This document shows positions 1 to 18,052 of a DNA stretch of 64,000 nucleotides, one piece after another. The DNA lies in assembly GCA_947486785.1 (NCBI GenBank), contig CANKUU010000014.1, positions 1 through 64,000 on the forward strand, read 5' to 3'. The notes beneath the pieces were generated by a model. The model was not told where the DNA came from. It ran no database searches and saw only the letters and a list, made by a program, of their open reading frames with translations. The first letter of the stretch is position 1. Every line of letters begins with the position of its first letter. The position numbers and the translations under genes are program-made. The stretch comes from an uncultured Flavobacteriaceae bacterium (GTDB lineage Bacteria; Bacteroidota; Bacteroidia; Flavobacteriales; Flavobacteriaceae).

Positions 1-12
1 AAAAAGACGTAA

Positions 13-252
13 AAAAACTCAAAAGAGCAAAATCAGAAACCAAGTCAAAATCATGCACCCTTTTGCAATGGTCTTACATTATTCATATCGAAAATAAAAA
101 CGAAAATACAAACAAGTCGATACTTTAAAAAGTATCCCTTTGAGCAAATTAAAGCGGTAACAAAATGGAAAACAGCGCAGATTGGATTGTTAGAAAAACA
201 AGTTGGTAGCGTTGATTACGCCCCTTTTAATGGTGAAAGTTTATCGCTATAG
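13..252 (+). other. Open frame without start, possible coding remnant at window edge
   Basis: A frame without ATG is open from 13 to a TAG at 250-252 (79 codons). It reads like protein near its end (for example YPFEQIKAVTKWKTAQIGLL), but a stop at 10-12 interrupts it, and an adjacent frame is open from 2 to about 94. This could be the frameshifted tail of a gene or mobile element lying to the left. I do not recognise the family. Two related quasi-palindromes follow immediately. Confidence 0.25.
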
Positions 253-3105: not shown

Positions 3106-4356
3106 TTAAATCTTTTTTTTTAGCAAAAAAACTGATATAATTAGTAATGCAATTGCTCCATGTGTAAGAAAAACGGTAAAAACAGACGAACTGATAAACG
3201 AAAATATGACTAATACAAACAGTCCCATGTATTTAGAAGGTATTCGTAAACTATTTAAAACAGCAAAATAGGTCGCAACTAAAAAACTATTAAACAACAC
3301 TCCCCAAGTACCTGCATTCATATATCCTTCAGAGATTAATCCATTATTTGCCGCCATACTCGGTCGATTAAAATAAGCCGCACCAATTAAATTTACATGT
3401 GGCACATCATAAGGATATTCGATAAAACGTTTCAAAATTGACCCTGACCAAAACAACGGTTTTTCTTCAAAAAAGTCGAGATAACTAATATCCAGTAATG
3501 AAGGTAAGAAGTGAATTCTACGAAAAGTAAGAATCCAAGGATAATCGATATTAACAACAGATAGCATTAAAAACAATACAATAAAAACATTAGAGTATTT
3601 GATAATTATTTTCACCGACTGTGCATAACTCCACTTGTAAAACGCAAATACCACTATTAAACCTCCATATACGCTTTTATGGGCGCCAAACAAATAGAAC
3701 AACACCAAATAAAAAACTCCTAATAGTAACAATATTTTATTTTTCAACTCTAAGGAAAAAAGAATAATCAATGGAATTATTATTTTAGTAAATACTGAAT
3801 ATGTATATCCAAAATAAGCATTTGACAGGGCACCCATCTTAGTGCGTGTCTCATATACATCTATCAATAAAAGGTTTTTTAAGTTAATGTGTGGACCGTA
3901 TACTAAAAGATAGGGTATAGTGCCAATTATCAAAATACCCAAAAGTAAATACAACGCTTGTTTTTTATTAAAAACCGGTACATTATTAAAGTTAAGTCTA
4001 ATCTTTGTAAAAAGTAATAGTGCCCAAAACAATACTTGATGATACAAAAGTAACTTTATAGGATACATATTTGCTGAAGTAAAGGCAATTAACGATGGTA
4101 TCGTAAGTAATGCAAAAAATAAGGATAAAACGAGGAATGATAATTGCTTACTATTGCCTTTAGTTAACCAATATAAATTTATCGAAAAAATAAAAATAGC
4201 AATGAGGCATCTATCCAATGAAAAATCAAAAAAAGTATCATTCAAACTTGCAATATAATTCCAGTAGAAATATGTCTTAATTTTATAATGATACAGCAGC
4301 AGCAGCAGAAAAAAATAGCCTATGAAATAATGTTTTATGTAAAGTTTTAATTTCAT
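3106..4356 (-). CDS. Wzy-like oligosaccharide repeat-unit polymerase (multipass membrane protein)
   Basis: A 416-residue, very hydrophobic protein with roughly ten to twelve membrane segments and a larger polar loop around residues 255-340 (RRIHFLPSLLDISYLDFFEEKP, then FNRPSMAANNGLISEGYMNAGTWG). Polymerases of surface polysaccharides have this plan: many helices, one large periplasmic loop, weak sequence conservation. The motif NGLISEGYMNAGTWGVLFNS, with its E-G-Y-x-N-x-G core, recurs in Wzy/EpsG-like polymerases. It probably links flipped repeat units in the periplasm. Only four bases separate it from the ligase-like gene upstream, so the two are co-transcribed. Assignment rests on topology and context. 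Confidence 0.75.
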   Translation of the reverse strand: MKLKLYIKHYFIGYFFLLLLLYHYKIKTYFYWNYIASLNDTFFDFSLDRCLIAIFIFSINLYWLTKGNSKQLSFLVLSLFFALLTIPSLIAFTSANMYPIKLLLYHQVLFWALLLFTKIRLNFNNVPVFNKKQALYLLLGILIIGTIPYLLVYGPHINLKNLLLIDVYETRTKMGALSNAYFGYTYSVFTKIIIPLIILFSLELKNKILLLLGVFYLVLFYLFGAHKSVYGGLIVVFAFYKWSYAQSVKIIIKYSNVFIVLFLMLSVVNIDYPWILTFRRIHFLPSLLDISYLDFFEEKPLFWSGSILKRFIEYPYDVPHVNLIGAAYFNRPSMAANNGLISEGYMNAGTWGVLFNSFLVATYFAVLNSLRIPSKYMGLFVLVIFSFISSSVFTVFLTHGAIALLIISVFLLKKKI

Positions 4357-4360
4357 AAAC

Positions 4361-5596
4361 TTAGTTCGTGCTTTTAGAATTAGTTAATACAAAACACGTT
4401 ATAAAAGCAAAAAAAGAGACACCAGAAAAACGATTAAAAATACTCTCAAAAAGTGAATTAATGAAAAGTACCATAACTAATGATAGTATAAAGCCCCCGA
4501 AATAAGTGTCTTTAACGCCGGCTCTAAACAAAGTAAAAAACAATAGACTCAAAACCAGCAACCCAATAATACCATTTTCTAACCATGTCTGTAACCACAA
4601 GTTATGCGCATTATAAGATTCTTTAAGTGGATATATATATTCCTTTTGTTTATACTTTTCATTTAATTTCTCCTGTGTTTCACCTACACCATACCCAATA
4701 AAGGATTCTTCTTTTAGTAATGCTGTGGCTGCACTCCAGGTAAGCAAACGTGTTTTAAAACCGTAGCGTCCGTTTTTGTCTATGGTCAAACCCTCATTAG
4801 TGATTTTTCGTATACTGTCACTAGTTCTAGGATTCAACCAAACGAAAACACCAATACACATAGTTGCCACAAGCAAGGTAATCCATTTTCTTTGTGTAGA
4901 AATCTTAAGCGTGCAAATTCTTAAAAAAAGAATAGCACATGCAGCAATAACTGCTGCCTTATTGGAGATAAAAAATAACAATAGAAAGAAAAAAAATCCC
5001 AAAAACAACCTTATTTTTCTAGGAAACAGATCTTCTCTAAAAATCACTATTGCCATAGCTACAGTAACATACAACGCAAAATATACCGTTTGATGAAAGA
5101 TAGAAAAGAAACTGCCAAAAAAGTAATTACCCCCATATAATATAGATTCAATAGCTCCTTTTCCCTCAAGTACATTTGGAGCAAAAACCCAGACACCTTG
5201 TTTAATAGTTATTGAACGACACGTTGCAACGATGAAACATAATACCGCTGAGAAAATTACGCCATAAACCAAGGCTACAAACATATTCTTCCTTTGAAAA
5301 TCTGAGTATTTTTGTAAATAAAAAATGAGAGGAAAAATCAAAAAAGACAATTTAGTCTCTAAAAAACCAAAAGAAACTGTTCCTGATGTTACAAGACCAA
5401 TGGCATAGGTTGCATAAAACAAAGGCAATAGCCATAGGGATCTATTATTTTTAACTTCTTCCTTATCAAAATTAAGGACAGAAAGAAACGCCCATAAAAT
5501 AATGGCTAAGGTGGCTATCTTTTGATGAAAAGGTATTAAAAAAGCGTATAGTAGGGCACCATAATAATATCCTTCTTTAAAAATTGGCTTTTGCAT
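4361..5596 (-). CDS. O-antigen ligase-like membrane protein (Wzy_C family)
   Basis: A 411-residue protein with about twelve membrane segments. The signature of the O-antigen ligase/polymerase family is clear in the C-terminal half: FIGYGVGETQ followed by a polar stretch, then YNAHNLWLQTWLENGIIGLL, including the conserved His of the periplasmic loop. Members join completed polysaccharide to a lipid or protein acceptor, or act as polymerases. A separate Wzy-like protein follows, so a ligase role is the simpler reading, but the two roles could be swapped. It is coupled to the downstream gene (four-base gap) and follows the AsnB-family gene by 32 bases. Confidence 0.83.
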   Translation of the reverse strand: MQKPIFKEGYYYGALLYAFLIPFHQKIATLAIILWAFLSVLNFDKEEVKNNRSLWLLPLFYATYAIGLVTSGTVSFGFLETKLSFLIFPLIFYLQKYSDFQRKNMFVALVYGVIFSAVLCFIVATCRSITIKQGVWVFAPNVLEGKGAIESILYGGNYFFGSFFSIFHQTVYFALYVTVAMAIVIFREDLFPRKIRLFLGFFFFLLLFFISNKAAVIAACAILFLRICTLKISTQRKWITLLVATMCIGVFVWLNPRTSDSIRKITNEGLTIDKNGRYGFKTRLLTWSAATALLKEESFIGYGVGETQEKLNEKYKQKEYIYPLKESYNAHNLWLQTWLENGIIGLLVLSLLFFTLFRAGVKDTYFGGFILSLVMVLFINSLFESIFNRFSGVSFFAFITCFVLTNSKSTN

Positions 5597-5628: not shown

Positions 5629-7437
5629 CTAGAAATTTACATTAAATTTTTGCGACCATAGCGCAATATTGAACAACTTCCATAAGGCCAAATCATCTAT
5701 GCTTTCATTTAGCATATTCACATCAACAAATTCATTAATAAAGGGGGATTTCTTTATTGTAGTTAAAAGTTCCTTTTTATCAGAAAGCCAAGTTTTTGTT
5801 GGGGCTTCAAACCCGAATTTATTTCTGCGCCAAACGATTTCATTTGGCAACAGTCCTTTAGCTGATTTTCGCAATATAAACTTAGACCAACCAGCTCTCA
5901 TTTTGTAAGAGAAAGGGAGCGAATAGGCTAATTCCACTACCTTATAATCTACGAAAGGCACTCTAGTCTCAATAGAAAAATGCATGGAATTACGATCTTC
6001 ATATTTTAAAAGCTTTTGCATTTGAATCTTAGTAATTTCAAACTCTTGAAGCGTATGAATATCTTTATTTGCATTTGCAATTTCTCTTAATAAGGGTTTA
6101 TTAATAAACTTTTTAAAAGGTTCCTTTATGTACGAATATCTTTTTAACTGTCTTGCCGCTCGTATTCCCGCATTATTAAAGTAAATATTATACAATAACA
6201 CATCTTTCAAGGAAAGTTTTGAATTTTTAGCAATTTTAATAGCGCTCCCTATTTTCTTAAAAATATTTGGCTGCTGATTTATAAAAGCACTGTAGTAGCG
6301 CTCATAACCTAACAAGGTTTCATCGCCGCCTTGACCATCTAAAAGCACCGTACAACCCTCCTCCTTTGCTTTTTTCATTACAAAATACGCCATAATAATT
6401 GAAGGACTACCAAAGGGCTCTTCTTGAGCCTCTATAACCCGATCTATTGCTGCTAAAAAATCATTTTTGGATGGCTCTGTTATTTTCCAATCTAAGTTGG
6501 CCGATTCTACAACCATCTTTGCAAAAGCAGACTCATCATTCTTCTTTTCGACTGATTTTGCAGTAATTGCAGTAAATTGATCTCCGCTTTGATCCTTATA
6601 AGGCTTTGAGGCGGTGGCGGCAATATAAGAACTATCCATTCCTCCACTCAAACAAGTACCTACCTTTACATCAGACCTAAGTCTTATTCCTATTGCTTCA
6701 TTTAAAGTTTTTCGAAATAATACTAGTGCGTCATCAAAAGATAGTTTTTCTAATTCTTTATTTGGCTTAAGTTGGTAATACTTTTCAATTTGATAAGATC
6801 CTTTTATCGTATTGAAAATTAAATTATGCCCAGGTTCCAATGACATAACACCTTCGAAAAAAGTATTTTCATTGTGATGGTGGTAACCCAGATATAAAAA
6901 ATCGAACAAGATTTGTTTATTTACTTTTCTTTCTTTTACTTGAGTAAGCAATTGTCTAATTTCCGAACCGAAAAAAAAAGAATTCTGGGTTTCGTGATAA
7001 TAAAAAGGCTTAATTCCAAAACGATCTCTACTTATAAATATTTTGTTGTTGCCTTTATCATAGATAGCAAAAGCCCACATTCCATTAAACTTTTGAACAC
7101 AATCCTCTCCCCAATATTGATACGCTTTTAAAATAACTTCTGTATCTGTTTGAGTATTAAAAATAATTCCATTTTCTTCAAGCTCTTTTCTAATTTCAAT
7201 ATAATTGTAAATTTCACCATTAAAAGTGATAACAAGATTATCTTTCTCCATAGGCTGATGACCTGCTTCGCTTAAATCAATAATAGCAAGTCTTCTGTGA
7301 CCTAAGCCTATATTCTCATCCAGATAATGTCCTTCGCCGTCAGGACCTCGATGCTTTATTACATCGGTCATTTTTTTAACATCCGCCAAATCAACAGTAA
7401 CTTTGTTTTTATGAATAATACCTGCTACTCCGCACAT
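5629..7437 (-). CDS. asnB: AsnB-family glutamine-dependent amidotransferase (asparagine synthase-like)
   Basis: A 602-residue, full-length class II amidotransferase. Met removal would expose the nucleophile Cys2 (MCGVAGI). The glutaminase domain shows RGPDGEG (30-36), FNGEIYNY (72-79) and SRDRFGIKPFYY. The synthase domain has the PP-loop SGGMDS (264-269) for ATP. The family makes asparagine from aspartate and glutamine, but AsnB-like enzymes inside polysaccharide loci can amidate a uronic acid carboxylate (WbpS of Pseudomonas aeruginosa O6 is the usual example). Embedded among Wzx/Wzy genes and near WbpB/WbpD-type genes, a sugar amidotransferase role is plausible. Catalytic capability is evident; the substrate is not. 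Confidence 0.9.
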   Translation of the reverse strand: MCGVAGIIHKNKVTVDLADVKKMTDVIKHRGPDGEGHYLDENIGLGHRRLAIIDLSEAGHQPMEKDNLVITFNGEIYNYIEIRKELEENGIIFNTQTDTEVILKAYQYWGEDCVQKFNGMWAFAIYDKGNNKIFISRDRFGIKPFYYHETQNSFFFGSEIRQLLTQVKERKVNKQILFDFLYLGYHHHNENTFFEGVMSLEPGHNLIFNTIKGSYQIEKYYQLKPNKELEKLSFDDALVLFRKTLNEAIGIRLRSDVKVGTCLSGGMDSSYIAATASKPYKDQSGDQFTAITAKSVEKKNDESAFAKMVVESANLDWKITEPSKNDFLAAIDRVIEAQEEPFGSPSIIMAYFVMKKAKEEGCTVLLDGQGGDETLLGYERYYSAFINQQPNIFKKIGSAIKIAKNSKLSLKDVLLYNIYFNNAGIRAARQLKRYSYIKEPFKKFINKPLLREIANANKDIHTLQEFEITKIQMQKLLKYEDRNSMHFSIETRVPFVDYKVVELAYSLPFSYKMRAGWSKFILRKSAKGLLPNEIVWRRNKFGFEAPTKTWLSDKKELLTTIKKSPFINEFVDVNMLNESIDDLALWKLFNIALWSQKFNVNF

Positions 7438-7598: not shown

Positions 7599-8936
7599 TT
7601 ACATATTTAACTCTTCTATTAAACGCTCATACATATTTACATATTTATAAAAGTCAGGATGAAATAAATTATTATTGTGCCAAAGTAATGAAAAGTTACC
7701 CTCATACTTCTTGGTGACCTCTATGACAGATTTAACTTGTTTAAAAATGATTGAAGGATTTAAATCATTATCAACAATGGCTATATCCATTACATGAAGT
7801 GTATCTTCCTTAAGTTTTAGTTTTTCTCTTGTTTTAACATTGAATACAGAATACCTGTAACAACTTCCTGTTCTGAATCCTATGAATTTCTCAAAACCCA
7901 TACTTCCATCAATCTCTAAGCCAATATCTTCCCAATATTGCCATGTTTCAGGAACTTGAAATCTTAAATAATGTTGTCGACCTTCCTTGATAGATAATCC
8001 CGTTACTTCCTCCAATCTATTCTTTTCTTTTATTAACATTTTTTTATCAATATAAGAATTATAGGATGGATGGATGCCTATTATGTGTTTTCTACTTTTT
8101 ATTTCCTCATAAGCTCTGTTTGCTTTTTTACTATTATAATTATATCTAACATCATATTCACCCAATAATCCAGGAATAAAATAGAATCGAGATATTATCC
8201 TACTTTTTTCAGAAATATTCATCAAATAATCAATCGTGTCATAATTATCTTTACAACCCAACACATAAATACCAAGAATATCAGCAAATGTTCTTATAAG
8301 TGATCGAATACTTTTTCTCCGAAATATATCACCGCCTATTGCCCTAACTATTTTTATTAATGAATCATACCTAGCTAAACTGTCAATATCATGACTAATA
8401 AGCGGCTCAAATTTTCGTGGTTTTTGCTTAACTTTAATTTTACACCTTTGAAACAAAGACAATAAGAATGCCGCATACTCGTTGACTAAAGGCCTATGAA
8501 CCAAATCATTTTTAACAACCCAAGACTTCTCTTCTGGAAACCTATCAAACTGATCTTTTTCAACCTCTACAACCTCTTCCCATCTTGTTAACATAAAAAA
8601 TGCGGATGCGAAAATATCAGCTCCACAATAAACACCAGAATTTTCAATGATTAACTTATCGTTTCCAAAAGGAAATGATATAGAATCTCTGCCCATATCT
8701 ATAGATTGAAATCCTTTTGGAAGATATTTACTTCTCATATAGGAACCTTCAATATTTGAAAAAAAGCAATCATTAATTACAATTACCGTAGTACTATCTG
8801 AATGCGTAATTTGATAATCTTTATTTTTTGATGCAACTATATGGTACTCTTCAACACCAATAAATTCAGAAAACAAAGTTTCTACGATATATTTTTTTTC
8901 TTTAAAAAAAGGAGACCCTATATGAATATTAAACAT
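7599..8936 (-). CDS. Polysaccharide deacetylase-like protein (DUF7033 type)
   Basis: A 445-residue cytoplasmic-looking protein without a signal peptide. The C-terminal half is a NodB-like barrel: SHDIDS (181-186) supplies the His-Asp pair of motif 1 and IHPS (288-291) resembles the metal-binding H-x-x-S/T motif 2. LLWHNNNLFHPDFY near the end is typical of this group. The N-terminal 170 residues match the extra domain seen in deacetylase-like proteins of Bacteroidota polysaccharide loci. It could N- or O-deacetylate a sugar precursor or glycan, but activity is unproven in this subgroup. It lies between the SDR gene and the AsnB-family gene, with gaps of 120 and 161 bases. Confidence 0.75.
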   Translation of the reverse strand: MFNIHIGSPFFKEKKYIVETLFSEFIGVEEYHIVASKNKDYQITHSDSTTVIVINDCFFSNIEGSYMRSKYLPKGFQSIDMGRDSISFPFGNDKLIIENSGVYCGADIFASAFFMLTRWEEVVEVEKDQFDRFPEEKSWVVKNDLVHRPLVNEYAAFLLSLFQRCKIKVKQKPRKFEPLISHDIDSLARYDSLIKIVRAIGGDIFRRKSIRSLIRTFADILGIYVLGCKDNYDTIDYLMNISEKSRIISRFYFIPGLLGEYDVRYNYNSKKANRAYEEIKSRKHIIGIHPSYNSYIDKKMLIKEKNRLEEVTGLSIKEGRQHYLRFQVPETWQYWEDIGLEIDGSMGFEKFIGFRTGSCYRYSVFNVKTREKLKLKEDTLHVMDIAIVDNDLNPSIIFKQVKSVIEVTKKYEGNFSLLWHNNNLFHPDFYKYVNMYERLIEELNM

Positions 8937-9056: not shown

Positions 9057-9812
9057 TTACTGAATAGAATATCCACCATCAATTTTTATATTTTGCCCTG
9101 TTATCCATTTTGAATCATCTGACAATAAAAAAAGTACCGTCGGGACAACATCTTCTATCTGACCTATTCCCAAAGGGTGCATTTCTTCAATTTGCTTAAC
9201 GTTCTCATCTGAGAGCTGTGAAAATAGTTTTTTAGTCATTGGTGTTGCCACAACCCCTGGAGACACGGCATTTACCCTAATTTTTCGTTTTGCCAACTCT
9301 AGCGATGCAGAATTAACAACCCCCAAAACAGCAGATTTAGTAGCACAATAACCCACTTTTCCTGGCTGACCCAATTCTCCCATTACAGAAGAAAAAAACA
9401 CAACGCTAGAATTGTCCTTGCTAAACTTTTTCTTTGAAAAAATTCGTAATAGCTCTATCCCAGAAAAGAGATTAAGATTAAATAGAGATTTTATTTTATC
9501 TCCTTTATACAAACTTAGAGGAACTGTTTCCTCTTTTCCTGCACAGAGTACAAGTCCATCTAGTTTTTCTTGCGCTACCGAGTTATTCTGAAACAACCCT
9601 TCAATACCATCTATATTATTAAGATCGTAGGGTAAAAACAAAAACTTATTATCTTCAAAAGACAAATCACTTACCTTGCTCTCATCTCTTCCTATTCCTA
9701 TAACCCTAGCTCCTTGAGACAATAAAGCAATACAAATTCCTTTTCCAATACCTGAAGTTGCCCCGGTAACGAGAATGTTCTTGCCTTTTAAGTCATTCTT
9801 TTTCATTGCCAT
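9057..9812 (-). CDS. SDR-family oxidoreductase, probably FabG-like 3-ketoacyl reductase
   Basis: A 251-residue classical short-chain dehydrogenase. The cofactor motif TGATSGIG is at 16-23, with a following GIGRDE that favours NADP. The catalytic set is Asn114, Ser141/142, Tyr155 and Lys159 (YCATK). SPGVVATPM and the C-terminal SKWITGQNIKIDGGYS are typical of FabG-like enzymes. Its position 29 bases downstream of an acyl carrier protein gene and next to a ketoacyl synthase III suggests that it reduces a 3-ketoacyl-ACP to a 3-hydroxyacyl-ACP for sugar acylation. A direct role on a nucleotide sugar is the alternative. The ATG at 9812 and the third codon (9806) are both possible starts. Confidence 0.9.
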   Translation of the reverse strand: MAMKKNDLKGKNILVTGATSGIGKGICIALLSQGARVIGIGRDESKVSDLSFEDNKFLFLPYDLNNIDGIEGLFQNNSVAQEKLDGLVLCAGKEETVPLSLYKGDKIKSLFNLNLFSGIELLRIFSKKKFSKDNSSVVFFSSVMGELGQPGKVGYCATKSAVLGVVNSASLELAKRKIRVNAVSPGVVATPMTKKLFSQLSDENVKQIEEMHPLGIGQIEDVVPTVLFLLSDDSKWITGQNIKIDGGYSIQ

Positions 9813-9841
9813 ATAGCATTCTGAATTTTTACGTATCTGAT

Positions 9842-10072
9842 TTAAGAAAACTTGTCAACACCAATTTTATCTATAAGAGACTCAAATGTTGTTAATTTGG
9901 CAATATCTTCAGCATTCAAACTAACCTCAAATTTTTCTGAAACGAAACCAATTAGCACCATCATACCCATAGAATCCCATTCATCTAATTCTTGGAAATT
10001 TGTTTCTGCTGTTACTGTTGTTTCTATTTCCATTTCTTCTGCCAACTCGGCAATAAATTCTTCTTTTGTCAT
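9842..10072 (-). CDS. Dedicated acyl carrier protein
   Basis: A 76-residue acidic protein with the phosphopantetheine attachment motif DEWDSMG; the Ser in D-S-M is the attachment site (D-S-L is the commonest form, D-S-M is well tolerated). Length and helical pattern fit an ACP. It is not in the usual fab cluster but sits between a ketoacyl synthase III (nine bases upstream) and an SDR, so it is probably a specialised carrier that holds a short acyl chain for transfer to an amino sugar. Confidence 0.92.
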   Translation of the reverse strand: MTKEEFIAELAEEMEIETTVTAETNFQELDEWDSMGMMVLIGFVSEKFEVSLNAEDIAKLTTFESLIDKIGVDKFS

Positions 10073-10081
10073 ATTTTAAAA

Positions 10082-11089
10082 TTATAAAGCATTACTGATT
10101 TTTATTAAACCTCCAGACCATGACAGCCCCACTCCGAAACCAACCAAAATAATATCTTCTGATTTGTTGATATTCTGAGAATATTGTTTTAAAGCAATAG
10201 GTATGGTGTTAGACACCGTATTCCCACCATCTTTTAAATTAATATAAAATTTTTCTTCTGTGATTTTTAATCGTTTTCGCATAAAATTAAGCATAAAAGC
10301 ATTGGCTTGATGAAATATGAACTGCGAAATACTCTCTTTATCTATAAAGTTCTTTGCCAAAATTTCTTTTGTGAAATTTGGAATTACACTAGAGGTAAAA
10401 TTAAAAACCTCTGGTCCATTCATATATAAATGATTATCGGTATACTTATTGTCTGTACCGTATTCTTTGACTAAACAATTTTTGTCATATTTATGTTTGC
10501 TTGCTCCATTTTTTACAATCAACTTATCATAGCCACTTCCATCTGTTCCAAACACAAAATTTCCAATATTATCTTCTTCAGACTCAACAATCAATGTTGC
10601 AGTTGCTGCATCACCAAATATTGATCTATTCGTTCGGTCTCCGGGGTGTATAAATTTAGAATACGTCTCTGTAGTAACCAACAGAACATTTTTAGCCTGT
10701 TTTGATTCAATAAGCGCTTTTCCCATACTTAAACCGTAGGTGTAACCAGAACAGCCCAAATTAAAATCTAAAGCCCCAATACCTTTCCTTAAACCCAGTT
10801 CATCTTGAAGAATACAAGCAGTCGTAGGCAGCAAATACTCAGGACTTTGAGTACAATATAAAATATAGTCGATTTGATTTTTATCTACTCCTCTTTCAAA
10901 AAGTTTTAATGACGCAGCACGCGCCAAATTAAAACCCGTCTCGTTATTTTTTACAATATATCTGGCATAAATACCGACTTTTTTTTCAAAATTCAGAAAA
11001 TCATAATCAGGGAATTCCTTTTTCAAATCCTGATTAGTTACTTTTGTTTCAGGAAAACAATACTCAATCGCAGAAATTTTACATCCCAT
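10082..11089 (-). CDS. 3-oxoacyl-ACP synthase III family protein (FabH-like)
   Basis: A 335-residue thiolase-fold condensing enzyme with the complete Cys-His-Asn triad of the KAS III family: Cys113 in NLGCSGYTYGL, His260 in FIFHQANAF and Asn290 in DGGNTVSNTIP. GDAATATLI (159-167) is another family motif. It would condense an acyl-CoA starter with malonyl-ACP to give a 3-ketoacyl-ACP. The gene is nine bases upstream of the ACP gene and ten bases downstream of an AAC(3)-like acyltransferase gene. In this setting it probably makes the short 3-keto chain that becomes an N-acyl group on a sugar, rather than serving general fatty acid synthesis. Confidence 0.92.
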   Translation of the reverse strand: MGCKISAIEYCFPETKVTNQDLKKEFPDYDFLNFEKKVGIYARYIVKNNETGFNLARAASLKLFERGVDKNQIDYILYCTQSPEYLLPTTACILQDELGLRKGIGALDFNLGCSGYTYGLSMGKALIESKQAKNVLLVTTETYSKFIHPGDRTNRSIFGDAATATLIVESEEDNIGNFVFGTDGSGYDKLIVKNGASKHKYDKNCLVKEYGTDNKYTDNHLYMNGPEVFNFTSSVIPNFTKEILAKNFIDKESISQFIFHQANAFMLNFMRKRLKITEEKFYINLKDGGNTVSNTIPIALKQYSQNINKSEDIILVGFGVGLSWSGGLIKISNAL

Positions 11090-11099
11090 AATCTAGTTT

Positions 11100-11966
11100 T
11101 TACTTTTTTAACTTATCAATTATTTTTAACAAAAAAAATGGTAACGTTTTTAAACCATCTATGTAAAAATTCCCATAACAATCAATGCAATATTTGTTTG
11201 CACATTGAATCATTTTTCTATTATTTTTTAATTCTTTTTTAACTATGTCATAGCATTTTTTTCCATCCATAATTGCACTTTGAGCATTTCCTACATAGCT
11301 AAAATCGATTTCATTTTGTATAACAAGTGGTCCTATAAGTTTATGTCCTCCTTTTGAACAACCCCCGTAATCATTAACAGTAAATAGTTCGATTTTATTT
11401 TCTTCGGTTTTATAGTATGTTTGAAATAAACCTTTATTAGGCATTTTTAAAGTATAACCAAGCTGCTCCTGTGCATAGTGAATTGCCTGTGGTGCATTTT
11501 TATTATCCAAAGTGCCAATCATTACAAATTTTCCCCCCCTTTTTATTATCTCACCAACTACCGAGTAACTCATTGATTTATGATTATGTGATTCGAAAAT
11601 TTCTGCTATAGAACTCCCTAATCCCACATATGAATTTGTTGGATGCTTACTGCGAAATGCAATATCTTTTTTTACCAAAAAACTAGGTAATGCTCCACTT
11701 GTTGTTGGAGCAAATCGATCAAACAAAATTTTTTTGTCTTTTCTAAATCTAAAAAAAGTTTTAGTAAAAGAAGGTAATATAATTCCTCCTTTGTCTCCAA
11801 CTATCTCCATTAAAATTTCAATCCATAATTTTAAGGTTTCTTTTCGACTCTTATAAAAAAAACCAACCTTAAATACATCGATACTTATAAAAAGTAAGTC
11901 CCCTTTTTTAATACCAAGTTCAATTAAGTCTTTTTTTAGACTATCTTTTGTAACTTCTGATTTCAT
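11100..11966 (-). CDS. AAC(3)-fold N-acyltransferase, probably acting on an amino sugar
   Basis: A 288-residue member of the aminoglycoside 3-N-acetyltransferase (AAC(3)/YokD) family. Visible signatures are KGGIILPSFT, SKHPTNSYVGLGS and the following FVMIGT. Family members move an acyl group from a thioester to an amine. AntD of anthrose biosynthesis is, to my knowledge, a nucleotide-sugar N-acyltransferase of this fold using a 3-hydroxybutyryl donor, so the neighbouring KAS III, ACP and SDR strongly suggest the same kind of job here. A true antibiotic-resistance role is unlikely given the context. The gene ends ten bases before KAS III and abuts the flippase gene stop without spacing. Confidence 0.85.
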   Translation of the reverse strand: MKSEVTKDSLKKDLIELGIKKGDLLFISIDVFKVGFFYKSRKETLKLWIEILMEIVGDKGGIILPSFTKTFFRFRKDKKILFDRFAPTTSGALPSFLVKKDIAFRSKHPTNSYVGLGSSIAEIFESHNHKSMSYSVVGEIIKRGGKFVMIGTLDNKNAPQAIHYAQEQLGYTLKMPNKGLFQTYYKTEENKIELFTVNDYGGCSKGGHKLIGPLVIQNEIDFSYVGNAQSAIMDGKKCYDIVKKELKNNRKMIQCANKYCIDCYGNFYIDGLKTLPFFLLKIIDKLKK

Positions 11967-13241
11967 TTAAAAAAAATTCAATTTTTTATATCCTGCCGCA
12001 GCTCTATATTGTAACAAAGTATGCAATATATAATAGACAACATAGGTTGTGGTATATAATTTTATTGATAAAACATAATCTAATTTTATATATCCAATAT
12101 AGATTGCTAGGATAGAAAAAACAGCTCTGAATATTTGCAAAATCATATCACTCCGTTGACTCTTATTGAAAACAATTGTATAGGACATAGGAGTTGATAA
12201 AAAATTTGAAAATATTGAAAAAGACAAATATTTAGTAATCGTACCTGCTATTAGCCATTCATCCCCGAAAACAAAACTAAACAATGCCTCACTAAAAAAA
12301 AACAACATCAAAAATGGAACAATTCCAATTAAAAACAACCTTTTAAAAGTTTTCACGAACAATTCTTCGCAATTCCCATGTAACACATAGTTTTCAGCTG
12401 CTTTTTGCCTATAGACTTCTTCAATTGCCCTTGCGATCATATCTACCATACCACCTGTTATTCTTTGTGAAAGGGCATAACATCCGGCAATTGAAGCACC
12501 AAAATATGAAGTAAATAAAATTACTGGAGCATTTGAAGCTACAGTACCTGTAAAAGTAGCGAACATAAGATATTTTGGATATTCCTTATAATGCTTGAGC
12601 AAAACTATGGATCTTTTCTTATTAAAATCATCTACTTTCAATGATACTTTACTTTTAAGATAAAAAAAGTTTAAAAGCTGCCCAATAATTGTCCCAAAAA
12701 TAAGGCCATTTATTTTGGTTGTAACACCAATAAACAAGGATGAAAGCGTTACAGAAGTACTCGACATTACTTTTGAAGTGCTTTTCTCTTTATACATTTT
12801 TTTTCTATTCAACCAATACGATAATATTGAAACATTTGATATAAAAAAAACGGAAAAAGGAAGAAAAAACAACCACTCCTTAATATCCCTATTACCCATT
12901 AGAAAGGCAATTTTCGAATTAAATAAAACAACAATAATTAGTAAAATAAAACAATAGAAAACAGTAAAAATAAATGATGATACCGCAAGATTTTTTGCGT
13001 CATTGTCGTATTTCGGCTCAATTATCGATAAATCATAGCGCCCAGTAGCAAAAACTGCCAAAATTGCACTCATTCCTGTATATACACCAAGCAGTCCAAA
13101 ATCTTCAGTCGTAAATACTCTAGTTAAAACAGGGCTTAAAATTAAAGGAATTGCCTGAGCTATGGCAAATCCAGAAACTAAGGTTACTACATTCTTAAGA
13201 AAATCTGATGAGGAAAATTTATTGATAAGTTTATTCAACAT
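11967..13241 (-). CDS. Wzx-type polysaccharide flippase (MATE/MOP superfamily)
   Basis: A 424-residue integral membrane protein with about twelve predicted helices. The start region, VTLVSGFAIAQAIPLILSPVLTR with FTTEDFGLLG just after, is characteristic of lipopolysaccharide flippases (polysaccharide_synt family). It would move undecaprenyl-linked repeat units from the cytoplasm to the periplasm for the Wzy-like polymerase. I start it at the ATG at 13241; the frame is open two codons further to a TTG at 13247. It lies eight bases after the stop of the WbpB-like gene, and its own stop abuts the next gene, so it is part of the operon. Confidence 0.9.
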   Translation of the reverse strand: MLNKLINKFSSSDFLKNVVTLVSGFAIAQAIPLILSPVLTRVFTTEDFGLLGVYTGMSAILAVFATGRYDLSIIEPKYDNDAKNLAVSSFIFTVFYCFILLIIVVLFNSKIAFLMGNRDIKEWLFFLPFSVFFISNVSILSYWLNRKKMYKEKSTSKVMSSTSVTLSSLFIGVTTKINGLIFGTIIGQLLNFFYLKSKVSLKVDDFNKKRSIVLLKHYKEYPKYLMFATFTGTVASNAPVILFTSYFGASIAGCYALSQRITGGMVDMIARAIEEVYRQKAAENYVLHGNCEELFVKTFKRLFLIGIVPFLMLFFFSEALFSFVFGDEWLIAGTITKYLSFSIFSNFLSTPMSYTIVFNKSQRSDMILQIFRAVFSILAIYIGYIKLDYVLSIKLYTTTYVVYYILHTLLQYRAAAGYKKLNFF

Positions 13242-13249
13242 ATTCAATC

Positions 13250-14802
<1,553 letters not shown>

Positions 14803-14815
14803 ATAAATTTTAGTT

Positions 14816-15589
14816 TCATTCAAGAACACTATTCTTAGGTCTTCTTGCTAAAGTACGATAATTTTTAGCCCTTTGAAGAAAGACGGTGGTACGCAAGTTA
14901 TTTTCTTCTAAAATACGTTCTGCAAAACCATACCATGTCATTGCTTTACCATCGGTAAAATGGTGAACACCATATTTTTTTGTTGTTAAATTAATTAGCC
15001 TCAAAATGTAGGCTGCTAAGTTATTTGCATTTGTAGGGCAACCCGTTTGGTCATCTGCAATTTGTAAGTCTTCTCCATTATTTGCCTTGCTGAGTATCGT
15101 TTTGTAAAAATTTTTACCAAATTCTGAGTATAACCATGAGGTTCTAATAATACAATACTGCTTTAAAATTTGTTGTATGTATTGCTCTCCCAGTAACTTA
15201 GATTTTCCGTACACATTAATGGGGTTTGTATCATCGGTAATACAGTACGGTGTTACCTTCTCCCCATCAAAAACATAATCTGTAGAGACATGGATTAAAG
15301 TTACATTTTTTAATAAACAAGCATTTGCTAATAGTTTAACCCCTTCTGCATTAACCTCATAAGCAATTTCTGGTGTTTTCTCTGCTTGCTCTACATTTGT
15401 ATATGCTGCACAATTTATACAATATTCAAAGTTATTAGCAGCAAATACCTCAGCAATTTGTTCGGCGTTGGTAATATCTAAGGATTTTGAATTATAATAT
15501 ACAAATTGGTATTCTTTGGTGTTCTTTGCAATTTTTTGAATGCACTTACCGAGTTGCCCATCTGCTCCTGTAACTAAGATATTTCTCAT
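14816..15589 (-). CDS. rfbD: dTDP-4-dehydrorhamnose reductase, C-terminally short
   Basis: A 257-residue SDR-extended reductase for the last step to dTDP-L-rhamnose. It has the cofactor motif TGADGQLGK, the catalytic STDYVFDG and YGKSKLLGE motifs and a C-terminal substrate region ending RRPKNSVLE. Family members usually have about 285-300 residues and continue after SVL with a D-x-S/T-K-I/L motif and roughly 25-30 more residues. Here a stop follows directly, while the next codons in the +1 frame read NETKI, as expected of the missing tail. The ATG overlaps the rmlC stop by four bases. Activity may survive, since catalytic residues are intact, but the end is unusual. Confidence 0.9.
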   Translation of the reverse strand: MRNILVTGADGQLGKCIQKIAKNTKEYQFVYYNSKSLDITNAEQIAEVFAANNFEYCINCAAYTNVEQAEKTPEIAYEVNAEGVKLLANACLLKNVTLIHVSTDYVFDGEKVTPYCITDDTNPINVYGKSKLLGEQYIQQILKQYCIIRTSWLYSEFGKNFYKTILSKANNGEDLQIADDQTGCPTNANNLAAYILRLINLTTKKYGVHHFTDGKAMTWYGFAERILEENNLRTTVFLQRAKNYRTLARRPKNSVLE

Positions 15590-16131
15590 GAAAACAGTTC
15601 TTTAAAAGTGGGGAGAACTGCGTCTTTTTCTGAAAGTAATATATCTGAAGCAGGTAACTGCCAATCTATTTGCAGGGTCTCATCATTCCATAAAATGCCA
15701 TTTTCAGCAGGTTTGTGGTAATATGCATCACATTTATAAACAAAAGTGGCTTGCTCAGATAAGGTTAAAAAACCGTGAGCCATACCTTTTGGTATAAAAA
15801 GAGATCTATTGTTTTCTTCAGACAAATGTATTTTAAAATACTGACCAAAAGTGTTGCTCTCTGGGCGCAGGTCTACAGCAACATCTAAAACTTCACCTTT
15901 AACCACACGTACCCATTTTGACTGAGCAAAGTCGCCTTCTTGAAAATGAAGCCCCCTTAGCACTCCCTTTTTTGAAATAGATTGATTGTCTTGAACAAAG
16001 TCTATGTCTTGCCCTATGGCTTGCTCAAATTTTTTCTTGTGATAAGATTCAAAAAACAAACCTCTTTCGTCATCAAAAATTTGGAACTCAACTATAAAAC
16101 ATCCTTCTAAATTAGTTTCTGTAATTTTCAA
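15586..16131 (-). CDS. rfbC: dTDP-4-dehydrorhamnose 3,5-epimerase
   Basis: A 181-residue cupin epimerase that converts dTDP-4-keto-6-deoxyglucose to dTDP-4-keto-rhamnose. The catalytic His lies in VLRGLHFQ (about 58-65). QSKWVRVVKGEVLDVAVDLR and FIPKGMAHGFLTLSE are family signatures, and ILWNDETLQIDW is the usual C-terminal motif. Length is standard. The best start is a TTG at 16131 giving MKITETNLEGCFIVE, which aligns with the family start; no ATG lies nearby. It is 30 bases downstream of rmlA and overlaps rmlD by four bases. Confidence 0.95.
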   Translation of the reverse strand: MKITETNLEGCFIVEFQIFDDERGLFFESYHKKKFEQAIGQDIDFVQDNQSISKKGVLRGLHFQEGDFAQSKWVRVVKGEVLDVAVDLRPESNTFGQYFKIHLSEENNRSLFIPKGMAHGFLTLSEQATFVYKCDAYYHKPAENGILWNDETLQIDWQLPASDILLSEKDAVLPTFKELFS

Positions 16132-16161
16132 AACTTACTGCTATTTTCTGTATTATAAATC

Positions 16162-17016
16162 TTAAAGCATCATTAAATACTTACCATAACCACTTTTCAA
16201 TAAGGGTTTTGCCAATAGCTGAAGCTGGTCTTTGCTAATATAACCCATATCATAGGCAACTTCTTCAATAGCACCTACTTTAAGGCCTTGTCGCTCTTGA
16301 ATTACCTCTACTAATTTTGCGGCTTGCATTAGCGAACTAAAAGTACCCGTATCAAGCCAAGCCGTTCCTCTATCTAAAATACGCACCTGTAAGTTGCCTC
16401 TTTCTAGATAAACACGGTTAATATCAGTTATTTCTAACTCTCCACGTTCACTAGGGCTAATATGTTTTGCAATTTCAACCACGTCGTTATCGTAGAAATA
16501 AATACCTGGAACCGCAAAATTTGATTTCGGATGAGTTGGTTTCTCTTCAATAGATATTGCATTTCCATCCTCATTAAATTCTACAACTCCATATCTTTCA
16601 GGGTCTTGTACATGATAACCATATATTACCCCACCCTCTGGGTTATTATTTTTTTGCAGTAGCTTTGCCAAGCCAGATCCGTAAAATATATTATCCCCTA
16701 AAATAAGAGCTACTTTATCTTTACCAATAAAAGATGCTCCAATAATAAAAGCCTCTGCCAATCCGTTAGGATTCTTCTGTATTGCAAACTGAAAATTGCA
16801 GCCTAGTTGTGAACCATCTCCTAATAGTTTCTTAAATAACGGAGCATCTTGAGCGGTAGTTATAAACAATATTTCTTGAATGCCTGAAGACATTAAAGTT
16901 GCCAATGGATAATAAATCATTGGCTTATCATAAATTGGCATTAGTTGTTTACTAATCGCATAGGTTATAGGGTGCAGCCTTGTTCCTGATCCTCCGGCAA
17001 GTATGATTCCTTTCAT
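16162..17016 (-). CDS. rfbA: Glucose-1-phosphate thymidylyltransferase
   Basis: A 284-residue nucleotidyltransferase joining dTTP and glucose-1-phosphate. The signature [14 protein letters not shown] is at residues 3-16, with [15 protein letters not shown] after it. [11 protein letters not shown] holds the metal-binding Asp, and [19 protein letters not shown] and [10 protein letters not shown] are further family motifs. Length is normal for the short RmlA type. It lies one base after the rmlB stop, so translation is probably coupled. Confidence 0.97.
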
Positions 17017-17017
17017 A

Positions 17018-18052
17018 TTATACTTTTAGGTATTTTTTTAGGTACCATGTAATGGTTTTAATAATGCCAGATTCAAAATTTTCATCTGGTTTCCAACCTA
17101 ACTCATTACTTATTTTGGTTGCGTCTATAGCATATCTATAGTCGTGACCTAAACGATCATTTACGAAGGTAATTTGATGTGTATAACTTCCCTCTGACTT
17201 AGGTTGTAACTCGTCTAAAAGGCTACATATTCTTCTCGCAATAAACAGATTATTATATTCGTTATTGCCCCCAATAGCATAGGTTTCACCAGCACGACCT
17301 TCTTTAAAAACTGATGAAATACCTTTACAATGATCTAAAACATATAGCCAATCTCGAATATTGGTTCCGTCACCATAAATTGGAATTGACTCTCCTAACA
17401 AAGCTTTTCGAATAATAGTAGGTATCAACTTTTCATCATGTTGCTTTGGCCCGTAATTGTTTGAGCAGTTACTTGTAACTACGTTTAATCCGTAGGTATG
17501 AAAGTAGCTTCTGACCAACATATCTGAAGAGGCTTTTGACGCACTATAAGGGCTATTTGGAGCATATGGGGTTGTTTCTGTGAAAAAACCTTCGCTACCT
17601 AAGCTACCATATACCTCATCGGTTGATACATGATGAAAACGAGCAAGCTCAAAACCTTTAATAACTTTATTTGATGCATCTAACCAATGTCTTTTTGCTG
17701 CTTCTAGTAAAACAAAGGTTCCTTCAATATTTGTTTTTATAAAACTATCAGGCTTTTCTATCGAATTATCGACGTGTGATTCTGCTGCAAAATGTATGAT
17801 GCCTTTAAAATTATACCGTTGAAACAATTTATCTACCAATTGGGCATCACAGATATCTCCTTTTACGAAATGGTACCGTTCATTTGCGGTTAGTTCCTCT
17901 AAATTAGATAACTCACCTGCATATGTTAATAGATCAAGATTAACTATTTGAATGTCTGGATTATCGGCTAAAAAATAGGGTACAAAGTTACTGCCAATAA
18001 AGCCGGCGCCTCCAGTTACTAATATAGTATTATCGTCTGAGTTTATACTCAT
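17018..18052 (-). CDS. rfbB: dTDP-glucose 4,6-dehydratase
   Basis: A 344-residue extended SDR that makes dTDP-4-keto-6-deoxyglucose. The NAD motif TGGAGFIGS, the catalytic [12 protein letters not shown] (Thr-Asp-Glu) and YSASKASSD (Tyr-Lys) are all present, as are [14 protein letters not shown] and the sugar-binding [12 protein letters not shown]. Length is normal. The ATG overlaps the stop of the wzz-like gene in an ATGA, typical of translational coupling. Its product can feed rhamnose or, via other enzymes, amino-deoxy sugars that the acyl module could decorate. Confidence 0.97.

Follow-up and report, generated by a model that had tools for sequence, protein, structure and literature searches.

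A wfp-type acyl-donor cassette with an AAC(3)-fold N-acyltransferase in a Flavobacteriaceae polysaccharide locus

The stretch of DNA analysed here (the window) comprises 64,000 nucleotides from an uncultured Flavobacteriaceae bacterium, namely positions 1-64000 of contig C14 of source genome G000 (3.57 Mb), and the contig begins at window base 1. Labels with G denote genomes, those with L loci and those with C contigs of the window genome. We found four open reading frames at 9057-11966, arranged head to tail on the minus strand with gaps of 29, 9 and 10 bases. From the upper end downwards, they encode a 288 aa N-acyltransferase of the aminoglycoside 3-N-acetyltransferase (AAC(3)) fold (11100-11966; Antibiotic_NAT, PF02522, 6.4e-16, with profile and Foldseek matches to AAC(3) structures); a 335 aa wfpC-like starter synthase of the beta-ketoacyl-acyl carrier protein synthase III (KAS III) type with Cys113-His260-Asn290 (10082-11089; ACP_syn_III 1.7e-22, ACP_syn_III_C 5e-23); a dedicated acyl carrier protein (ACP) of 76 aa with Ser34 in a DSM motif (9842-10072; PP-binding 2.7e-6); and a 251 aa short-chain dehydrogenase/reductase (SDR), a FabG-like candidate 3-oxoacyl-ACP reductase with Ser141-142, Tyr155 and Lys159 (9057-9812; adh_short_C2 3e-44). 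An earlier sequence-only reading of this DNA had reported these coordinates, gaps and families and the shared direction. All were borne out by a check of the open reading frames and by Pfam scores that exceed the curated cut-offs for all four proteins. Residues 113, 260 and 290 of KAS III are indeed C, H and N, and are invariant in an alignment with two relatives. The reported Wzx/Wzy setting was also recovered, with a Wzx-type flippase (11967-13247; PF13440 1e-18, PF01943 1e-11) and a Wzy_C membrane protein, either polymerase or ligase (4361-5596; PF04932 7e-18), on the minus strand. The module is a real, well-conserved acyl-donor cassette that is known in kind, and what is new is the combination of its transferase with its predicted acceptor chemistry.

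The AAC(3)-like gene is the only AAC(3) gene in the window genome. A profile of six sequences matched the solved structures of AAC(3), YokD, BA2930 and FrbF at 1e-24 to 1e-20, and His163 of the window protein aligned with the catalytic His of BA2930 in this profile-structure comparison. A low-confidence predicted model (pLDDT 53), used for fold assignment only, retrieved AAC(3), FrbF and YokD structures by Foldseek with a prob of 1.00. With a PF02522 score over the cut-off and the catalytic His in place, the protein belongs to the AAC(3)-fold superfamily; it failed the cut-off for aminoglycoside-resistance AAC(3) (NF033082, 48 bits against 270). Apart from the window, no close relative was detected among 396 family genomes at 1e-15 or by a pattern scan of genome contigs. 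A class-wide search returned 25 remote AAC(3) genes, most of them adjoined by a homologue of the deacetylase VimE. They were given little weight because they come mainly from a radC-linked wecB-DUF7033-AAC3-CE4 cluster, which is a different context. This cluster, with the CE4 deacetylase followed by a FemAB/GNAT-like gene, occurs in several Bacteroidota genomes (L053, L054, L055 and L062). The window genome retains only radC-DUF7033-HAD on contig C3 (L008:13744-16473), where DUF7033 has lost its catalytic motifs. This second DUF7033 gene initially resembled part of a linking-sugar locus of the type IX secretion system (T9SS), and was set aside for that loss and its radC/HAD context.

Four genes of KAS III-like type are present in the genome, and the KAS of the module is 28-31% identical to the other three. 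When the KAS alignment was scanned against 84,980 species genomes, relatives were found at 80 loci at least, the best being 72% identical to the window protein and most having an ACP and/or SDR alongside. Conserved linkage in related genomes, which the sequence-only reading had put forward as a check, was found by this search, with KAS-ACP-SDR co-occurrence recurring in many genomes. The grouping of the module is not due to chance, because its AAC(3) gene is unique in the genome, its KAS is distinct from the other KAS III-like genes and the KAS-ACP-SDR linkage recurs. The ACP/KAS/SDR donor half is common in Bacteroidota. The sequence-only reading had expected a version with a dedicated ACP to be unusual; this expectation was not supported, because such cassettes are widespread across Bacteroidota and one was proposed for Flavobacterium psychrophilum in 2019 (PMC6519341). 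In that species, wfpC-G encode two KAS, an ACP, a reductase and a PglD-type enzyme, and the O-antigen carries a 3,5-dihydroxyhexanoyl group known from chemistry and nuclear magnetic resonance. Cisar et al. proposed that this group is synthesized in a type II fatty-acid-like manner and transferred from the dedicated ACP (PMC6519341).

Many of the loci found here follow the gene order published for F. psychrophilum: in Lacinutrix, Flavobacterium and Chryseobacterium the cassettes read KAS-ACP-KAS2-SDR-PglD, and a few of them have a gene for a PglE-type transaminase in the vicinity. The Lacinutrix cassette L071 (KAS-ACP-KAS2-SDR-PglD-PglE) is 72%, 67% and 67% identical to the window in KAS, ACP and SDR, respectively. 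A second KAS is absent from the window locus, as it is from the Sphingobacterium cassettes, which, like that of Olivibacter, have the one-KAS form. In the window cassette, the PglD-type acyltransferase is replaced by an AAC(3) fold. The KAS tree places the window as sister of the L071 KAS (support 100/94), and both fall inside a clade of 17 rows (100/100), 12 of which come from PglD cassettes. Given the well-supported branches, the AAC(3) label must have changed four or more times over this tree. Judged from these sequences, ACYLTRANSFERASE is swapped in the window from PglD-type to AAC(3)-type within a wfp-type cassette kinship, whose link to F. psychrophilum itself is drawn from gene layout.

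Two variations on the donor cassette were also observed. In pseudaminic-acid-type clusters (L067:15779-19628 and L087:10001-13498), KAS and ACP lie beside a PseH-type GNAT with no adjacent SDR, an insertion that suggests a 3-oxo- or 3-hydroxybutyryl nonulosonic acid. Flavobacterium cassettes have an extra gene of ~360 aa between KAS2 and SDR (L072:12305-13390, with equivalents in L073-L075 and L077). It looks Rieske-oxygenase-like by eye and may serve to hydroxylate the acyl group.

Other AAC(3) cassettes occur in G177 (L069), Oceanihabitans (L119), Galbibacter (L148) and three Bacteroidales genomes (L092, L096 and L097), together with one in G447 (L056) that has no KAS. The order in L096, CE4-AAC3-KAS-ACP-KAS2-SDR, is close to that of the window. 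A deacetylase gene lies within 4.5 kb on the same strand in 8/8 AAC(3) cassettes, being of VimE type in the window and of CE4 type in the others. None was found near 28 PglD/PseH cassettes (24 PglD and 4 PseH), and other cassettes had one nearby in 2/48 cases by profile and 4/48 by profile or motif. The association of AAC(3) with deacetylases gave 1e-8 in a Fisher test, or 5e-6 with the AAC(3) cases collapsed to five lineages, in a comparison that is partly circular because the CE4 profile came largely from AAC(3) neighbours. CE4 assignment was based on a borderline Pfam match, the motifs T(F/L)DYE, LHxHPHW and YRAGG, and Foldseek matches to CE4 deacetylases; the profile had no PDB match by sequence. 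A PglE-type transaminase is near 12 of the 24 PglD cassettes. As the simplest rule, the amine would come from transamination in PglD cassettes and from deacetylation in AAC(3) cassettes. Stand-alone CE4-AAC(3)-KAS-ACP cassettes were seen at L096:8041-13273 (where KAS2 and SDR are also present) and at L092 and L097:~9992-13205, beside housekeeping-looking genes and not in a polysaccharide locus.

The sequence-only reading had overlooked this swap of acyltransferase type as well as the deacetylase, WbpB, WbpD and AsnB-type genes of the same locus, and these genes suggest where the acceptor amine originates. A VimE-like deacetylase (DUF7033), predicted to free that amine, is encoded at 7599-8936. 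It matches NF053580 at 1.7e-46 (159 bits) over nearly its full length, keeps the motifs SHDID181, GIHPS287, RQH320 and WHN419, and has no PDB match by sequence. The minus strand also encodes an AsnB/WbpS-like amidotransferase, a predicted uronamide maker (5629-7437; TIGR01536 at 477 bits, over its cut-off, and TIGR03108 eps_aminotran_1 at 373 bits, under its cut-off); WbpB, the UDP-GlcNAcA 3-dehydrogenase (13250-14209; PDB 3oa2 WbpB, 404 bits, 3.5e-120); and a WlbB/WbpD-type 3-N-acetyltransferase with a left-handed beta helix (14224-14829; PDB 3mqg, 215 bits, 7e-63). A WbpE-like gene is on contig C17 (307 bits to PDB 3nyu), and a TviB-like UDP-GlcNAc C6-dehydrogenase that could take the WbpA role is on contig C6 (548 bits, just under the cut-off of 592). 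As WbpB and WbpD are in the locus and the other two elsewhere, the window genome appears to hold the enzymes for UDP-GlcNAc3NAcA.

Strong VimE relatives were found in two other Flavobacteriaceae genomes, G011 and G286. The G011 scaffold is syntenic with the window (rmlBACD, WbpD 74%, WbpB 89%, VimE, GT4 57%), but the stretch taken up by AAC(3)-KAS-ACP-SDR in the window encodes in G011 a PGA_cap protein, a protein with a weak ATP-grasp-like match (E 0.0016) and a hexapeptide transferase. In G286 (WbpB 74%, WbpD 71%), the VimE homologue adjoins a GNAT. For Porphyromonas gingivalis, the proposal is that VimE exposes the 2-amine and that VimA loads it with an amino acid (PMC7468200). The window genome had no match at E 0.01 to TIGR03019, a model that is VimA-related rather than VimA-specific. 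The four-gene module thus seems to occupy the place of VimA.

The rest of the locus is also encoded on the minus strand, where the order is a wzc-like gene, rmlB, rmlA, rmlC, rmlD, the WlbB/WbpD-type gene, WbpB, Wzx, AAC(3), KAS III, ACP, SDR, the VimE-like deacetylase, the AsnB/WbpS-like gene, the Wzy_C membrane protein, another membrane protein and GT4. The dTDP-rhamnose genes rmlD, rmlC, rmlA and rmlB (14816-18052) were recognized from their translations and are matched by rml genes of related loci. The second membrane protein (3106-4356) is in a Wzy-like place and is hydrophobic by sequence, with no Pfam match. The GT4-family glycosyltransferase (1845-2972) shares 57% identity with its counterpart in G011. 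At the truncated end, a lipoprotein-like protein with CarboxypepD_reg, fn3 and CBM_4_9 domains is encoded at 354-1463, and the end of the locus is missing from the window because contig C14 begins at base 1. A short inverted similarity links window positions 1-200 with the end of G000:C25 (L026), and purD adjoins polysaccharide genes on C25 as it does in the G011 locus; this inverted similarity at both contig ends and the G011-like purD context suggest a continuation of the locus on C25, on the far side of a repeat. Comparison of the C14 start with the C25 end gave the short inverted similarity only, which leaves their contiguity unproven. On C25, an N-formyltransferase adjoins a WecE-type dTDP-4-amino-6-deoxyhexose transaminase (L026:6274-8393), and this pair is perhaps part of the same polysaccharide locus.

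On balance, we lean towards a wfp-type donor cassette with an exchanged acyltransferase, in which 3-hydroxybutyryl-ACP is made and moved to an amine freed by the VimE-like enzyme on UDP-GlcNAc3NAcA. KAS III would join acetyl-CoA to malonyl on the dedicated ACP to form acetoacetyl-ACP, which the SDR would reduce to 3-hydroxybutyryl-ACP. A C4 chain is expected, since the KAS2 with which relatives of C6 layout extend the chain is missing from the window. WbpA and WbpE, encoded elsewhere in the genome, would build UDP-GlcNAc3NAcA together with WbpB and WbpD. The VimE-like enzyme would remove an acetyl group from this sugar, probably the 2-N one, and the AAC(3)-fold enzyme would move the hydroxyacyl group from ACP to the freed amine. 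The AsnB/WbpS-like enzyme may convert the uronate to a uronamide, and the predicted product is a 2-N-(3-hydroxybutyryl)-3-N-acetyl-glucuronamide in a Wzx/Wzy polysaccharide. The core of the sequence-only reading thereby survives: the preferred interpretation is still that KAS III and SDR produce a hydroxyacyl donor on a dedicated ACP, from which an AAC(3)-fold N-acyltransferase acylates an amino sugar. Which acyl chain and which acceptor are involved is still a matter of prediction.

Gene identities, motifs, linkage, cassette kinship and the acyltransferase swap are what can be read directly, whereas all the reactions and their order are inferred, as are the length of the acyl chain and the acceptor, with the acceptor position as the weakest step. 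Several points weigh against the proposed route. The starter specificity of KAS III is not readable from sequence. The VimE-like protein, at 159 bits, is below the 440-bit family cut-off of NF053580. The window AAC(3) has HYAQE just after its catalytic His, where its relatives have Hxx(E)D. WbpA and WbpE lie outside the locus as seen, which is truncated at C14 base 1. Most of the genes that went into the CE4 profile behind the 8/8 count are neighbours of AAC(3), and the motif check is independent but crude. In a ninth AAC(3) case, Prevotella locus L133, the AAC(3) gene is 5 kb from KAS and no deacetylase was seen.

Alternatives differ from this route in the acyl group, the source of the amine or the fate of the sugar. 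Starter use varies among KAS III enzymes, and cassettes with KAS and ACP and no adjacent SDR exist (L067, L087 and L092), so the cassette might make another acyl group (longer, through the single KAS acting twice, branched, or 3-oxo) that AAC(3) still transfers. We regard this as rather doubtful, as the window has an SDR with intact catalytic residues and two KAS genes are seen in relatives of C6 layout. The same donor cassette could also serve an amine made by a transaminase, either the WbpE 3-amine or the 4-amine of dTDP-4-amino-6-deoxyhexose, given the WbpE-like gene on C17, the WecE-type transaminase close to purD on C25, a contig to which the locus may extend, and the action of PglD relatives of the cassette on transaminase products (PMC6519341). 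However, both amines already have candidate partners (the WbpD-type acetyltransferase in the locus and the formyltransferase beside WecE), no part would remain for the VimE-like gene, and AAC(3) cassettes associate with deacetylases and not with PglE, which together make a transaminase origin unlikely.

Taken together, WbpB, WbpD and the VimE-like and WbpS-like proteins resemble the Wbp/Vim pathway (PMC7468200), and the sugar could accordingly be of the linking kind used for T9SS cargo in P. gingivalis. Known linking sugars, however, bear an amine that an amino acid contributes (Ser, Gly or Ala; PMC7468200, PMC11969387), whereas a hydroxyacyl group has none, and no VimA-related gene (TIGR03019) was found in the genome. 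We rejected this explanation for want of the amine and of VimA, and consider it highly improbable.

A broader proposal, which we hold tentatively and which may well prove too general, is that the deacetylase-freed amine of Wbp/Vim-like pathways is an exchangeable slot, filled in different loci by enzymes of aminoacyl transferase, GNAT or ATP-grasp type or, in the window, by a complete ACP/KAS/SDR cassette with AAC(3). The sugar here would be, for example, 2-N-(3-hydroxybutyryl)-3-N-acetyl-glucuronamide, and as a general rule AAC(3) would follow deacetylases and PglD transaminases. The finding ties together three subjects that are usually treated separately, namely the type II fatty-acid-like cassettes that provide donors for decorating antigens, the deacetylate-reacylate pathway of Wbp/Vim and AAC(3)-fold proteins. 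Databases label AAC(3)-fold proteins as aminoglycoside resistance. If the proposal is true, a number of Bacteroidota genes annotated as aminoglycoside acetyltransferases would be glycan-building enzymes, and acyl decorations of surface glycans would be predictable from the cassette, with KAS number indicating chain length and transferase type indicating acceptor chemistry.

Among known systems, AntD of anthrose biosynthesis, with which the sequence-only reading drew a comparison, is presumably of the same AAC(3)-like fold as the window transferase; literature searches for AntD, or for transferases of AAC(3) type that work with an ACP cassette, found nothing usable. The acyltransferases FrbF, BA2930 and YokD have the fold and the RSxHP and catalytic His motifs in common with the window protein, which is nevertheless remote from them in sequence and whose apparent donor is acyl-ACP from the adjoining cassette. 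Like the wfpC-wfpG R1-group cassette of F. psychrophilum, the window keeps a dedicated ACP, KAS, 3-oxoacyl-ACP reductase and N-acyltransferase together in a Wzx/Wzy locus (PMC6519341). The same arrangement is seen again in L071-L079, whose clade encloses the window KAS. The window departs from it in having a single KAS where the other has two, an AAC(3) fold in the position of the PglD homologue and, for the amine of the acceptor, a deacetylase rather than PglE/PglF. With the Wbp/Vim pathway for anionic lipopolysaccharide of P. gingivalis, it shares WbpB and WbpD, candidate VimE-like and AsnB/WbpS-like proteins and the proposed logic of deacetylation followed by reacylation (PMC7468200). In contrast to that pathway, VimA is replaced by the KAS/ACP/SDR/AAC(3) cassette, and WbpA and WbpE are encoded elsewhere in the genome.

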